Shown here: piece by piece, positions 9,623 through 12,895 of the stretch
How positions within the stretch are numbered: the first letter of the stretch is position 1
Layout: each line of letters begins with the position of its first letter
The notes under the pieces: model-generated
The model's input: the letters and a program-made list of their open reading frames with translations, nothing else
What the model was told of the DNA's origin: nothing
Databases searched by the model: none
DNA from: Eubacterium sp.
GTDB taxonomy: Bacteria; Bacillota; Clostridia; Lachnospirales; Lachnospiraceae
Length of the DNA stretch: 64,000 nucleotides
Assembly (NCBI GenBank): GCA_017541035.1
Contig: JAFXZW010000021.1
Span: forward strand, 19,287-83,286
Direction: 5' to 3'
Program-made: the position numbers and the translations under genes

Positions 9623-10297
9623 ATGAGAAAGCAAATCCTTGCCGGAATCCTCCTGCTCCTTTTGGGAGCCCTGTGCGGATGCGGCGCCAGCAAAGAAAAC
9701 AAATATGAAACCTATGTCCGCTCCATGATCTCGGCGGTATATCAGGGAAGTGACTATGACTCCTACTGCAAGGCAACCGGTATCAGCAGGGAAGAAGCCG
9801 AAGCTGCCCACAAATATGTGATTCAGAGACTGGCTGACAACCTCTGCCGCATTTACAGTCTTGACCTGGAAGGGAATGAGGCTCTGGAGCAGAAACTTCT
9901 GGGGCTTTCCGGCAGAATCTATGAGAATATCCGTTTTGAAGTTGCTCCCACGCGGAAGGAAGGGGATAACTACTACGTCGACGTAACCCTCTACCCCATG
10001 GAATTCCTGAGCGGCACCAATGAGAAGCTGGAAGCCTATGTGACGGAATACGACAGCAAGGTTTCGGCCGGTGAGTATAATGACGTTGAAAAAGAGGAGT
10101 ACCAGCGGAGCTTTGCCTCCGGAGTGATCGAAACCCTTGAAACAGCCGCCGAATCCGTCACCTACGGTGATGCCGTTACCGTAACCGTCCGCATTATTGA
10201 GAGTAAGAATACCTACGCTGTCAGTGAGACAGATCTGAAGAGCGTGGATGCGGCACTTCTTTCCTCTGTTGCTCCTTCCGGAAATGAGGAAAATTAA
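9623..10297 (+). CDS. Lipoprotein of unknown function
   Basis: A 224-residue protein with a lipoprotein signal peptide: MRKQ, a leucine-rich core, and lipobox LCGC with Cys20 as the likely lipidated residue. The mature part is acidic and has paired regions resembling small DUF5105-like or cystatin-like folds (VAPTRKEGDNYYVDVTLYP reads as beta strands), but I do not recognise the family with certainty. It should sit on the outer face of the membrane. AGAGGAAAG precedes the ATG. It is divergent from the coiled-coil gene across 235 bases, and a terminator follows at 10357. Confidence 0.8.
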   Translation: MRKQILAGILLLLLGALCGCGASKENKYETYVRSMISAVYQGSDYDSYCKATGISREEAEAAHKYVIQRLADNLCRIYSLDLEGNEALEQKLLGLSGRIYENIRFEVAPTRKEGDNYYVDVTLYPMEFLSGTNEKLEAYVTEYDSKVSAGEYNDVEKEEYQRSFASGVIETLETAAESVTYGDAVTVTVRIIESKNTYAVSETDLKSVDAALLSSVAPSGNEEN

Positions 10298-10356
10298 AGC
10301 TCCTTCACAGGGAAATCCACGACTGATATTGCAGCACATATCTTTTGCTATAGCAG

Positions 10357-10392
10357 ATAGCAGGGGCCAAAACCCCTGCTATTTGCTTTTTT
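10357..10392 (+). terminator. Terminator after the lipoprotein gene
   Basis: A 10-bp stem (ATAGCAGGGG at 10357-10366 with CCCCTGCTAT at 10373-10382) with loop CCAAAA is followed by TTGCTTTTTT. The T-run doubles as part of the glmS promoter region. Confidence 0.85.
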
Positions 10393-10411
10393 CCACGGGA
10401 TATGTTATAGT
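10383..10411 (+). promoter_or_regulatory. Probable sigma-A promoter for the glmS leader
   Basis: TTGCTT at 10383-10388 and TATAGT at 10406-10411 are separated by 17 bases. The start would lie ~50 bases before the glmS ribozyme cleavage site, as expected for a transcript carrying that ribozyme. Confidence 0.65.
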
Positions 10412-10460
10412 ATCACCATCTGTGCCGGTTCAGGAGGAGCACAGAGTTCGAAAGGTTCAG

Positions 10461-10912
10461 AAACCTTAGCGCCATGTGGCTGCAATCTGCGATTCCCGCA
10501 TGCAGCCTGACGAGGTGAAGCGTTATCGAAAGCTGAGAGATAAATTATTAATAAGACTATTCAAAACCGCAATTGGTTATGAGTTGGGAACGTGAATTTT
10601 ACTATTCACGACCGCTCCAAATCGGCATCGGCTCCATCCGCACTTCGTGCGTATGCCGTGCCTGCGGCACTTCTGAGCCGCTGCGATTTGGGCGGTTCCT
10701 GCTTCGCAGCTCTCCAACAGCAGCTTGCATCCTTGCGTGCAAGCACGCGGATGCAAGCTGCTGTTGGAGAGTCGTGAATAGTAACTCTTGGCCATCAATT
10801 CGGCGGATGCGCTTCCGGACGGCAGTTCGAAGGGAGCTGTAAGGGTCTTTGTTACAGTCTCCGTAGTATCGTGACAAAACCGGTCGGTAACGGACGGAAC
10901 AAAACACGATAC
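10461..10912 (+). ncRNA. glmS ribozyme: glmS ribozyme/riboswitch with a large internal insertion
   Basis: Conserved pieces of the glucosamine-6-phosphate-activated self-cleaving ribozyme occur in order before glmS. These are AGCGCC with the cleavage site between A10468 and G10469; a P1-like stem GGCTGCA/TGCAGCC (10478-10484 with 10501-10507); TGACGAGG at 10508-10515; GAAGCG (10517-10522) pairing with CGCTTC (10810-10815); TTATCGAA; TTCGGCGGATG at 10799-10809; CCGG; and a final stem GTATCGTG/CACGATAC (10866-10873 with 10905-10912). In the family, GlcN6P binding causes cleavage and decay of glmS mRNA. Here TTATCGAA and TTCGGCGG, normally a few bases apart, are ~270 bases apart because of an inserted structured segment. 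Confidence 0.9.
10531..10798 (+). repeat. Multi-hairpin insertion in the glmS ribozyme, MITE-like
   Basis: This segment splits the TTATCGAA...TTCGGCGG arm of the ribozyme. It has a 14-bp perfect terminal inverted repeat (10599-10612 with 10771-10784, core ACTATTCACGAC). Inside is a 23-bp perfect stem (10710-10732 with 10749-10771) capped by GCGTG/CACGC, plus smaller hairpins CGCAC/GTGCG (~10639-10652) and GTGC/GGCAC (~10658-10670). Flanking AATTG...GAGTT and AACTC...CAATT can extend the base of the arm. No open frame is present. It reads as a non-coding mobile or repeat element that folds as one extended arm. Confidence 0.75.
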
Positions 10913-10955
10913 CATGCACCATTTCTTTTTGCGTGCTAAAAAGCACGTAGTTTCC

Positions 10956-10979
10956 GAGGCATGGCGCCTCCCATTTTTT
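10956..10979 (+). terminator. Weak terminator-like hairpin in the glmS leader
   Basis: GAGGC at 10956-10960 pairs with GCCTC at 10966-10970, followed by CCATTTTTTG. It lies between the ribozyme and glmS. It may be chance, or it may cause partial termination after cleavage; no antiterminator partner was identified. Confidence 0.35.
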
Positions 10980-11077
10980 GCGTGTCCATACAAAGCTTTC
11001 AATAGCCGATCCCAAGGTTTTCTTCGGGTGGATTTTTTCCTGTGGGCATGTGCACGAATTGAAAGGAGAATAATATT

Positions 11078-12895
11078 ATGTGTGGAATAGTTGGATTTAC
11101 CGGGGAACTCCCCGCAAAGGATATACTGATCAGCGGCCTGGAGCAGCTGGAGTATCGTGGATACGACAGTGCCGGGATCGCCGTACTGGATGATGAGAAG
11201 GGTCTGCTTCTGAAGAAGAAAACCGGGCATGTGGCGGATCTTCGCGAGGCGGCAAAGGACATGGATACGACAGGGACCTGCGGTATCGGTCATACCCGTT
11301 GGGCAACCCACGGCGGAGTGACGGAAGCAAATGCCCATCCCCATAACTGTGGAACAGTAACTCTGATCCACAACGGGATCATAGAAAATTACCGTGAGCT
11401 GACGGTAGAATACGGTCTCTCCGAAAAGCTGAAATCCGAAACGGATACCGAGGTCGTAGCGGCGCTACTGGACAAGATCTATGAAGGGGATCCCATTACG
11501 GCTATCCGCAAGACCGTGAAGCTTTTGTCCGGAACCTTCGCCCTCTGCATTATGTTCAGCGACCACCCGAATGTAATCTACTGTGTGCGAAATGTCAGTC
11601 CGCTGGTTGCAGCTGTCTTTGATGAGGGAACCATTATCGCATCGGATCTTACCGCCCTCATCCCCTACTCCAGAAAATATTTCGTCGTTCCGGAGTATCA
11701 CATTCTGACCATGACAAAGGATTCCATCCGCGTGGAGGATATGAAGGGAAATAAAGTGACTCCCGAGATCCTTACCGTAGACTGGGACATCAACTCCGCG
11801 CAGAAGGGCGGATACCCGCACTTTATGCTGAAGGAGATCTACGAACAACCGGAAGCTTTGGAGCGTACCATCATGCCACGAGTAAAGGATGGTATGCCGG
11901 ACTTTACCGAGGATGGCATTCCGGATGATGTACTGAAAAATGCCCGGCGTGTTGTTGTGGTGGCCTGCGGCACCGCCATGCATGCCGGCATGGTGGGAGC
12001 AAAGGTGATCGAAAGCAGGCTCCGCATTCCCGTTCAGGTGGAGATCGCATCGGAATTCCGCTATAAGGATCCCATCATCGATGAGAGCGTTCTAACCATT
12101 ATCCTTTCTCAGTCAGGCGAGACCACCGACACGCTGGAAGCCCTGAAAATTGCCAGGAGCAAAGGTTCAAAGACCATCTCTATCGTCAATGTAAAGGGTT
12201 CCACCATTGCCCGGGAAAGTGATTACGTACTGTATACTCATGCCGGGCCGGAAATCGCCGTAGCCAGCACCAAAGCATACACCGTACAGATATCCGCCAT
12301 GTATCTTCTGGCGGCACGCATGGGCTTTGTGAAGGGCATTCTGTCGGAAGATGAGACAAAGGACTTTATCGGCAAGTTATCGGGTGCCGGAGAACTGATC
12401 GCAAAAACTCTGGAAAACGCCAATAATATCAAACGGATTGCAAACCACATCAAGCTTGCCCAGGATGTCTTCTACATCGGCCGCGGCATCGATTATACCA
12501 TGAGCCTGGAAGCGTCGCTGAAGCTAAAAGAGATCTCCTACATCCATGCGGAAGCCTATGCTGCAGGTGAGCTGAAGCACGGCACCATCGCACTGATCTC
12601 CGAAAATGTGCCGGTCATTGCCATTGCCACAGAGCCGTCCGTTTACCCGAAGACCATTTCGAACATGAAAGAAGTAAAGAGCCGCGGAGCCTACGTGATC
12701 CTGATCAGCCAGGATGCGGAAAAGCCTGATGATTCCGTATGCGACCGTCAGATCCGGATACCGGATGCGGAACCCACCTTTGCGGTATTTGCAACGGCTG
12801 CCGTCCTGCAGCTCATTGCTTACTATACCTCCGATGCTCGTGGGCTAGATGTGGATAAACCGCGAAATCTTGCCAAGTCCGTAACGGTAGAATAA
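11078..12895 (+). CDS. glmS: Glutamine--fructose-6-phosphate aminotransferase (isomerizing)
   Basis: A 605-residue cytoplasmic enzyme making glucosamine-6-phosphate from fructose-6-phosphate and glutamine, the first step toward UDP-GlcNAc and cell wall. It starts MCGIVGF, giving Cys2 as the N-terminal nucleophile of the glutaminase domain (~1-230; GIGHTRWATHGG, NGIIENY). Two SIS sugar-isomerase domains follow (VACGTAMHAG, SQSGETTDT, EISYIHAEAYAAGELKHGT), and the chain ends DKPRNLAKSVTVE as usual. AAAGGAG lies nine bases before the ATG. Expression is predicted to be fed back by the glmS ribozyme in the leader. It is the only gene of its transcript, closed by a strong hairpin at 12918. Confidence 0.98.
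   Translation: MCGIVGFTGELPAKDILISGLEQLEYRGYDSAGIAVLDDEKGLLLKKKTGHVADLREAAKDMDTTGTCGIGHTRWATHGGVTEANAHPHNCGTVTLIHNGIIENYRELTVEYGLSEKLKSETDTEVVAALLDKIYEGDPITAIRKTVKLLSGTFALCIMFSDHPNVIYCVRNVSPLVAAVFDEGTIIASDLTALIPYSRKYFVVPEYHILTMTKDSIRVEDMKGNKVTPEILTVDWDINSAQKGGYPHFMLKEIYEQPEALERTIMPRVKDGMPDFTEDGIPDDVLKNARRVVVVACGTAMHAGMVGAKVIESRLRIPVQVEIASEFRYKDPIIDESVLTIILSQSGETTDTLEALKIARSKGSKTISIVNVKGSTIARESDYVLYTHAGPEIAVASTKAYTVQISAMYLLAARMGFVKGILSEDETKDFIGKLSGAGELIAKTLENANNIKRIANHIKLAQDVFYIGRGIDYTMSLEASLKLKEISYIHAEAYAAGELKHGTIALISENVPVIAIATEPSVYPKTISNMKEVKSRGAYVILISQDAEKPDDSVCDRQIRIPDAEPTFAVFATAAVLQLIAYYTSDARGLDVDKPRNLAKSVTVE

Follow-up and report, generated by a model that had tools for sequence, protein, structure and literature searches.

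In the present study, we analysed a 64-kb stretch of DNA (the window, numbered from its first letter), in which the glmS gene occupies positions 11078-12895 of the forward strand. The gene encodes a protein of 605 aa, which scored 734.7 bits against the NCBIfam model TIGR01135 (cut-off 418.05). The upstream ORF ends at 10297, and the parts of a glmS ribozyme lie between this ORF and glmS at 11078. The match to a lineage-specific covariance model ends at 10922, which locates the ribozyme in the 5' leader of glmS. An earlier note on this DNA had proposed a glmS ribozyme with one large insertion at 10461-10912; the ribozyme was found there, with the model match extending to 10922. The parts of the window's leader described below are on the forward strand.

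Core motifs and secondary structure of the glmS ribozyme

The core strands characteristic of the glmS family (AGCGCC, GACGAGG, AUCGA and UCGGCGGAU) were all present in the window and in the correct order. The strands were located at 10468-10473 (AGCGCC), at 10509-10515 (GACGAGG), at 10523-10530 (UUAUCGAA) and from 10799 (UUCGGCGG, the fourth strand also being given as UUCGGCGGAUG at 10799). The predicted cleavage site, A-1/G1, was placed at 10468/10469 by homology to glmS ribozymes, on the AGCGCC that begins at 10468. The double pseudoknot of the core could be paired completely, and all of its pairs were standard. P2 consisted of six pairs between GAAGCG (10517-10522) and CGCTTC (10810-10815), one of which showed a two-sided change in relatives. 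P2.1 consisted of three pairs between CGA (10511-10513) and UCG (10526-10528), and P2.2 of four pairs between CGCC (10470-10473) and GGCG (10802-10805), the latter invariant in 10 of 10 sequences. These results agreed with the earlier note, which had the core pieces in order and the GAAGCG/CGCTTC helix able to form.

The remaining helices were also well preserved. The P1 hairpin (10478-10507) was paired at 7/7 positions between 10478-10484 and 10501-10507 and at 4/4 positions in its apex (10488-10491/10497-10500), where all four pairs had two-sided changes in the alignment with relatives. The P3 hairpin (10816-10829, CGGAC/GUUCG) had 5/5 pairs and was invariant in 10 sequences. P4 and P4a, the latter with a GUAA tetraloop, were located at 10866-10912. 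P4 was paired at 8/8 positions, seven of which changed on both sides among relatives, and P4a at 6/7, with one G-A mismatch. Within the P3/P4 domain, the ACAAAA on both sides, the GNRA loop GUAA and the purines of IL4 were read in the sequence, and an additional hairpin was found in J3/4.

We then compared the window row with the 89 columns that do not vary among nine relatives. In column 1 the window row is empty, as its stretch begins one base later, and among the 88 comparable columns a single difference was observed, at 10830 in J3/4. The structure including both pseudoknots, as drawn for the window row, had 94.3% of its cells paired, and 22 of 52 pairs had two-sided changes. None of 500 shuffles scored as high, and slid partners were 26.8-38.3% paired, with two-sided changes at no more than 6 pairs.

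Detection by Rfam and by a lineage model

At the gathering threshold, Rfam gave no match anywhere in the 64-kb window. At a lax threshold, the glmS family (RF00234) matched the 3' part only (10865-10912, 22.6 bits vs. a cut-off of 37), and no glmS match was obtained when 10440-10545 was searched alone. What the window ribozyme lacks is a single Rfam match above the gathering score, which is a search criterion and not a structural feature. We fetched 54 related loci through a protein search and submitted 20 of them to Rfam; all 20 had a glmS match over the cut-off. Such a match was also present in 53 of the 61 genomes of the genus, and the window's genome had none.

A lineage covariance model (R2), which was built from eight close relatives and has 179 positions, recovered both halves of the ribozyme. 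The 5' half matched at 10457-10634 with 88.4 bits, its ribozyme part being 10457-10540 (model positions 1-84), and the 3' half matched at 10711-10922 with 59.6-59.7 bits, its ribozyme part starting from about 10796. Because the lineage model found the two halves, we attributed the missing Rfam match to the insert. The earlier note had foreseen that the ribozyme might escape covariance searches or be called as two fragments, and both were observed. The lineage model placed the halves in order, with 88 and 60 bits.

A nucleotide search with 10440-10920 in the 61 genus genomes matched some part of the query in 31. The two ribozyme halves were a short gap apart in close relatives (e.g., 30 nt in G343 and 47 nt in G322), compared with 264-265 nt in the window at the same query points. 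Eight genus genomes had no Rfam match that passed the cut-off. Among their readable leaders, a ribozyme core before glmS was found in the window's genome only. The leaders outside this readable set were those of G328 and the first G333 copy, which were cut short, of G332, where the gene was partial, and of G345, in which no glmS gene was found. In G356, G344, G319 and the second G333 copy, the core motif was not found in the 1500 bases before glmS. Two sub-threshold Rfam matches were obtained in G333 (32.7 and 28 bits). The window thus provides a case of how a regulatory RNA drops out of a standard covariance search.

An expanded loop in the catalytic core

The loop between P2.1 and P2.2 spans 10530-10799 and measures 270 nt. 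We determined its length with a fixed motif across all fetched loci, which yielded 53 distinct ribozymes: besides the window, the loop had 4-7 nt in 35 and 21-69 nt in 17, counts that miss ribozymes departing from the motif and motif-less loci such as L037 and L039. The view of the earlier note that this loop usually has a few bases fits the 35 and passes over the 17.

To locate the loop within the known structure, we used published residue numbering. In the available portion of PMC7125110, the P2.1 strands are core residues 28-30 and 43-45, P2.2 has the pairs 2-56 and 5-53, and residues 47-50 form the P2.1-P2.2 pseudoknot loop, residue 50 of which reaches the base of P1. The accessible text of PMC11602151 gives matching contacts in B. 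subtilis numbering, namely C38-G55, at the connection of P2.1 to P2.2, and A56-U61. By our own sequence-based mapping, residues 43-45 correspond to 10526-10528, residue 46 to 10529, residue 47 to 10530, residue 50 to 10799, residue 51 to 10800 and residues 53-56 to 10802-10805. This mapping therefore places the insert in a loop of the catalytic core, the 4-nt P2.1-P2.2 loop, and not in a peripheral hairpin. The earlier note had assigned it to a peripheral arm extending a hairpin end, an assignment that follows the nested Rfam drawing and is not borne out by the part of PMC7125110 considered here. The UCGA/UCG hairpin of that drawing uses strands that crystal structures assign to the two pseudoknots.

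The insert itself was composite, consisting of an arm helix common to two relatives, a left part of 59 nt and an element of 186 nt. The length of about 270 nt given in the earlier note was accurate, and the repeat makes up only part of it. At the base of the arm, GCTGAGAG (10532-10539) pairs with CTCTTGGC (10785-10792) at 8/8 positions, with a pairing probability of 0.87-0.93. The arms of L012 and L016 start and end like that of the window (ACTGAAGG with CTTTCGGT or CTTTCAGT). Across these three sequences the helix is complete (8/8 in each), with two pairs changed on both sides, three on one side and three invariant. Elsewhere it has 6/8 pairs in L041 and three in L017, and the five remaining rows have gaps at these columns and form two pairs or none. 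The tally for this helix over all rows (five pairs with two-sided changes, 85.4% paired) draws in part on rows whose homology is doubtful. Beyond the base helix, the arm looks unrelated between relatives. The expected number of pairs between the two ends of the insert was 7.96, compared with an average of 1.14 over 200 dinucleotide shuffles. Since 2 of the 200 reached the observed value, the pairing of the ends is not attributed to chance. In a control with 60 single-base shuffles, the maximum closure was 9.63, above the observed 7.96. Judged by these sequence comparisons, the P2.1-P2.2 loop is an optional stem in this lineage.

The left part (10540-10598) resembles, from 10556 onward, a partial copy of the left end of the element: ACTATTCAAAACCGC at 10556 and ACTATTCACGACCGC at 10601 are 87% alike over 15 nt. 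Partial left-end duplications also occur in other repeat copies, and the left part may be a shrunken second copy of the element, for which the likeness is suggestive only.

Length variation was also observed at other places of the ribozyme. In the relative L042 (2140 onward), the P2.1-P2.2 loop is not the site of expansion; about 24 additional nt are found before AUCGA, on the P2 side of the core. P1-bearing segments range from 18 to 237 nt in the lineage and measure 142-237 nt in L028, L050, L062, L108, L027, L030, L142, L127, L143 and L064. The repeat model described below had no match in the six long-P1 loci searched with it (L027, L028, L030, L050, L062 and L143).

A dispersed structured repeat within the loop

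The 186-nt element at 10599-10784 is a MITE-like dispersed repeat with a structured layout. It scored 163.6 bits against the repeat-family model, of which the window copy is a training sequence, so that, like all training copies, it matches by construction. The element comprises the ends TTACTATTCACGAC/GTCGTGAATAGTAA, a forked hairpin, a CTGCTTCGCAG hairpin and a long hairpin capped by GCGTGCAAGCACGC. Its ends are perfect inverted repeats (14/14 nt). At 186 nt it is too short for a transposase, and the three overlapping ORFs (89, 264 and 137 aa) extend beyond it.

The distribution of the repeat was assessed by end motifs and by the covariance model. The 15-nt end motif TTACTATTCACGRCC was present in 13 of 299 family genomes, including that of the window, with 59 matches vs. 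5 for the reversed control. Four exact facing pairs of this motif were 192-197 nt apart; allowing one mismatch gave more, some with a different interior. In eight genomes, a 12-nt end motif with one mismatch allowed was no commoner than its reversed control (69 matches vs. 124), and the copy counts therefore rest on the covariance model. With this model, matches at E<=0.001 were found in 51 of the 61 genus genomes, including 33 matches in AC2029 (G304), and none in ten. In the window's genome, fuller scoring gave 13 places at E<=0.01, 12 of them at E<1e-6; two places matched only part of the model, and the 13 derive from 14 rows, one of which is the reverse strand of the window copy. Within the 64-kb window, the model matched 10599-10784 only, on both strands. 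The E-values are rough, and specificity is supported by the ten matchless genus genomes and the single site in 64 kb. These results bear out the suggestion of the earlier note that the insert is mobile-element-like.

We aligned 21 copies, including that of the window, over 213 columns; 16 came from the genus, and two other genera contributed the remaining five. The rows started from 22 copies scripted from 37 candidate stretches, from which L187, L193, L198 and L209 were dropped (L198 and L209 being one short copy) and to which L204, L207 and L208 were added by their ends. The aligned copies shared a similar layout, with inverted ends, a hairpin that in most is forked into two small hairpins, CTGCTTCGCAG and the long hairpin capped by GCGTGCAAGCACGC. 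In 44 of 51 predicted pairs, both sides were changed in a sequence. This covariation bears on DNA and RNA alike. The same ends enclosed another interior in L076, L083, L090 and L092, and in L203, L205 and L206 of the window's genome, which were unused in the alignment. A check for target-site duplications gave, at the flanks of many copies, only the terminal TTA/TAA, which itself belongs to the inverted repeat. A repeat copy was also located 14 nt downstream of the Rfam match of the ribozyme and before glmS, in the other orientation, in two further species of the genus (L125 and L128); a copy in the glmS leader was present in at least 3 of the 61 genus genomes. Overall, the analysis uncovered a dispersed repeat family with strong covariation, widespread in one Lachnospiraceae genus.

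Several side observations were made on these repeats. In L186 (G304:C1:1957387-1957665), the left end of the repeat is amplified in 48-nt tandem units, with three end motifs 48 nt apart, and partial left-end duplications of this kind were also seen in L183, L195, L196 and L207. Upstream of glmS in L013 lies a different short repeat around CTCAGGATGACATC, in several tandem copies.

The window copy matched no Rfam family at the gathering score. On the minus strand, its layout is similar to that of Clostridiales-1 RNA (RF01699), with an outer stem and a hairpin capped by CGUGCUUGCACG, but the copy reached only 38 bits against a gathering score of 48, and L009 reached 27 bits. Two of 14 submitted loci matched RF01699 at E<=0.1; the 12 without a match include some that perhaps do not hold a full copy. 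Membership in Clostridiales-1 was rejected on this score, and the repeat may be a distant relative of that family. An intron was also rejected, with no Rfam intron family matched, and matches to the microRNA families MIR1219, mir-22, mir-642, mir-1451 and mir-4874 were below their own cut-offs and were regarded as long-hairpin artefacts.

The insert is known from a single draft assembly (139 contigs), its join with the ribozyme was seen in no other strain, and the repeat family occurs at 13 places in this genome, as would be expected if the assembler had joined a repeat into the ribozyme. We consider such an artefact very improbable. The nearest other copy in the genome, by BLAST, shares 77% identity over 73 nt and 88% over 32 nt with it, and is too different for a usual repeat-driven misjoin. 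Moreover, the two flanks belong together as the matching halves of a single ribozyme, with glmS downstream, and the 8-bp helix that closes the insert is also present in two relatives.

The insert might also be a functional added domain, acting as a second sensor or a folding brake, and not a tolerated passenger. The optional stem that the lineage keeps at this loop (over 20 nt in 17 of the 52 others) and the structured nature of the element family, with its 44 of 51 predicted pairs changed on both sides, would be consistent with this. It seems improbable to us, given that the arm past the base helix looks unrelated between relatives and that the element is present at many other sites.

A second insertion and the hairpin downstream

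A second insertion, which the earlier note, describing only the loop insert, had left unmentioned, was revealed by comparing segment lengths. The segment from the UCGGCGGAU motif to the P4a side measures 66 nt in the window vs. 31-38 nt in 37 other distinct ribozymes. The additional sequence, about 33 nt at about 10830-10863 in J3/4, forms the hairpin GGAGCTGTAA/TTACAG(T)CTCC, which has 10 bp and a pairing probability of at least 0.96. The accessible part of PMC11602151 describes a base triple between P3 pairs and the J3/4 linker, and the hairpin may therefore weaken docking of the support domain.

A ribozyme burdened in this way could be dead or decaying, with the repeat and the J3/4 hairpin having disabled it and the leader being a relic. 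The two insertions, which are absent from the compared sequences (37 others for J3/4 and 52 others for the loop), the change in J3/4 at 10830 and the missing Rfam match over the cut-off would fit this explanation. On the other hand, P1, P2, P2.1, P2.2, P3 and P4 are fully paired, and P4 has two-sided changes at 7/8 pairs among the compared sequences. Only 1 of the 88 comparable invariant positions differs, yet a very recent insertion could look alike. On balance, we regard a disabled ribozyme as quite unlikely.

Downstream of the ribozyme, a terminator-like hairpin (GAGGCATGGCGCCTC, 10956-10970) was found in 9 of 10 compared leaders and was absent from L011. Three relatives have GAGGCATGGTGCCTC in place of it. 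A terminator scan of 10300-11090 gave two sites (10956-10970 and 10352-10387), compared with 0.9 (sd 1.0) in shuffles, which is weak when taken alone. The hairpin at 10956-10970 contains CATGGCGC, the exact complement of GCGCCATG of the ribozyme (10469-10476), and could therefore trap the P2.2 strand; as a T-run follows it in the window, it could alternatively be a terminator.

Folding and proposed function

In a pseudoknot-free fold model, P1, P3, P4 and the base helix of the arm formed with probabilities of at least 0.87, and P2 with 0.63-0.69. Core nucleotides paired with the insert at a mean probability of 0.035, the values for G10528 and A10529 being 0.37 and 0.36. The outer stem of the element itself reached a pairing probability of at most 0.28.

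Collectively, the ordered and paired core strands, the recovery of both halves by the lineage model and the TIGR01135 gene downstream support the original reading of a glmS ribozyme with a large insert. We consider it probable that the leader holds an intact glmS ribozyme-riboswitch, whose core loop is an optional stem in the lineage and here carries a dispersed, self-folding repeat; this judgement covers the explanation as a whole. Self-cleavage of the ribozyme is likely on the preserved sequence. The 8-bp base helix would hold both ends of the loop together, and the insert would leave the core as a separate domain. The core would then still fold, bind glucosamine-6-phosphate and cleave at A10468/G10469 as in relatives, and cleavage would lower glmS mRNA when the sugar is abundant. 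Transcription of 270 nt between P2.1 and the second P2.2 strand would delay completion of the core, and folding may therefore be slower than in relatives.

A further reading, which we put forward tentatively and regard as unlikely, is that the pseudoknot core of an active ribozyme has acquired a transposable structured repeat through a loop that serves the lineage as an entry point for additional stems, and that the repeat now tunes cleavage speed or the response to the ligand. The locus itself represents a natural test of the amount of additional RNA that can be accommodated in the active-site pseudoknot of glmS, at a loop of which one residue touches the base of P1 in the portion of PMC7125110 consulted.

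Comparison with known systems

The window ribozyme shares with the glmS ribozyme family (RF00234) the gene context, the cleavage-site motif, P1, P2, P2.1, P2.2, P3, P4 and the GNRA-capped P4a. It differs from this family in the length of the P2.1-P2.2 loop (270 nt, compared with 4), in the J3/4 hairpin of about 33 nt and in having no single match above the cut-off. The Lachnospiraceae glmS ribozymes with 21-69 nt in the loop (e.g., L012, L016 and L041) are expanded at the same place, and L012 and L016 also have the base helix; unlike the window, L012, L016 and L041 have no match to the repeat model and pass the Rfam cut-off. Variants of the glmS ribozyme from Deinococcus-Thermus with extra stems in the catalytic core were reportedly described by McCown, Roth and Breaker in 2011. 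These variants are said to resemble the window in having an extra stem within the core, but they belong to another phylum and are not known to be repeat insertions.

Like the bacterial MITEs reviewed in PMC10969869, as far as its available text goes, the window repeat is short, has inverted-repeat ends, occurs in many copies and forms stable folds. It is MITE-like by its ends, size and copies, and differs from the MITEs treated in that portion of the review in sitting within an existing ribozyme. The same text regards riboswitches or terminators formed by MITEs in mRNAs as conceivable, and describes no MITE within a ribozyme. In a keyword search of titles and the starts of abstracts in the open-access literature, which leaves most subscription papers outside, a repeat within a glmS ribozyme or riboswitch core was not described among the matches listed.
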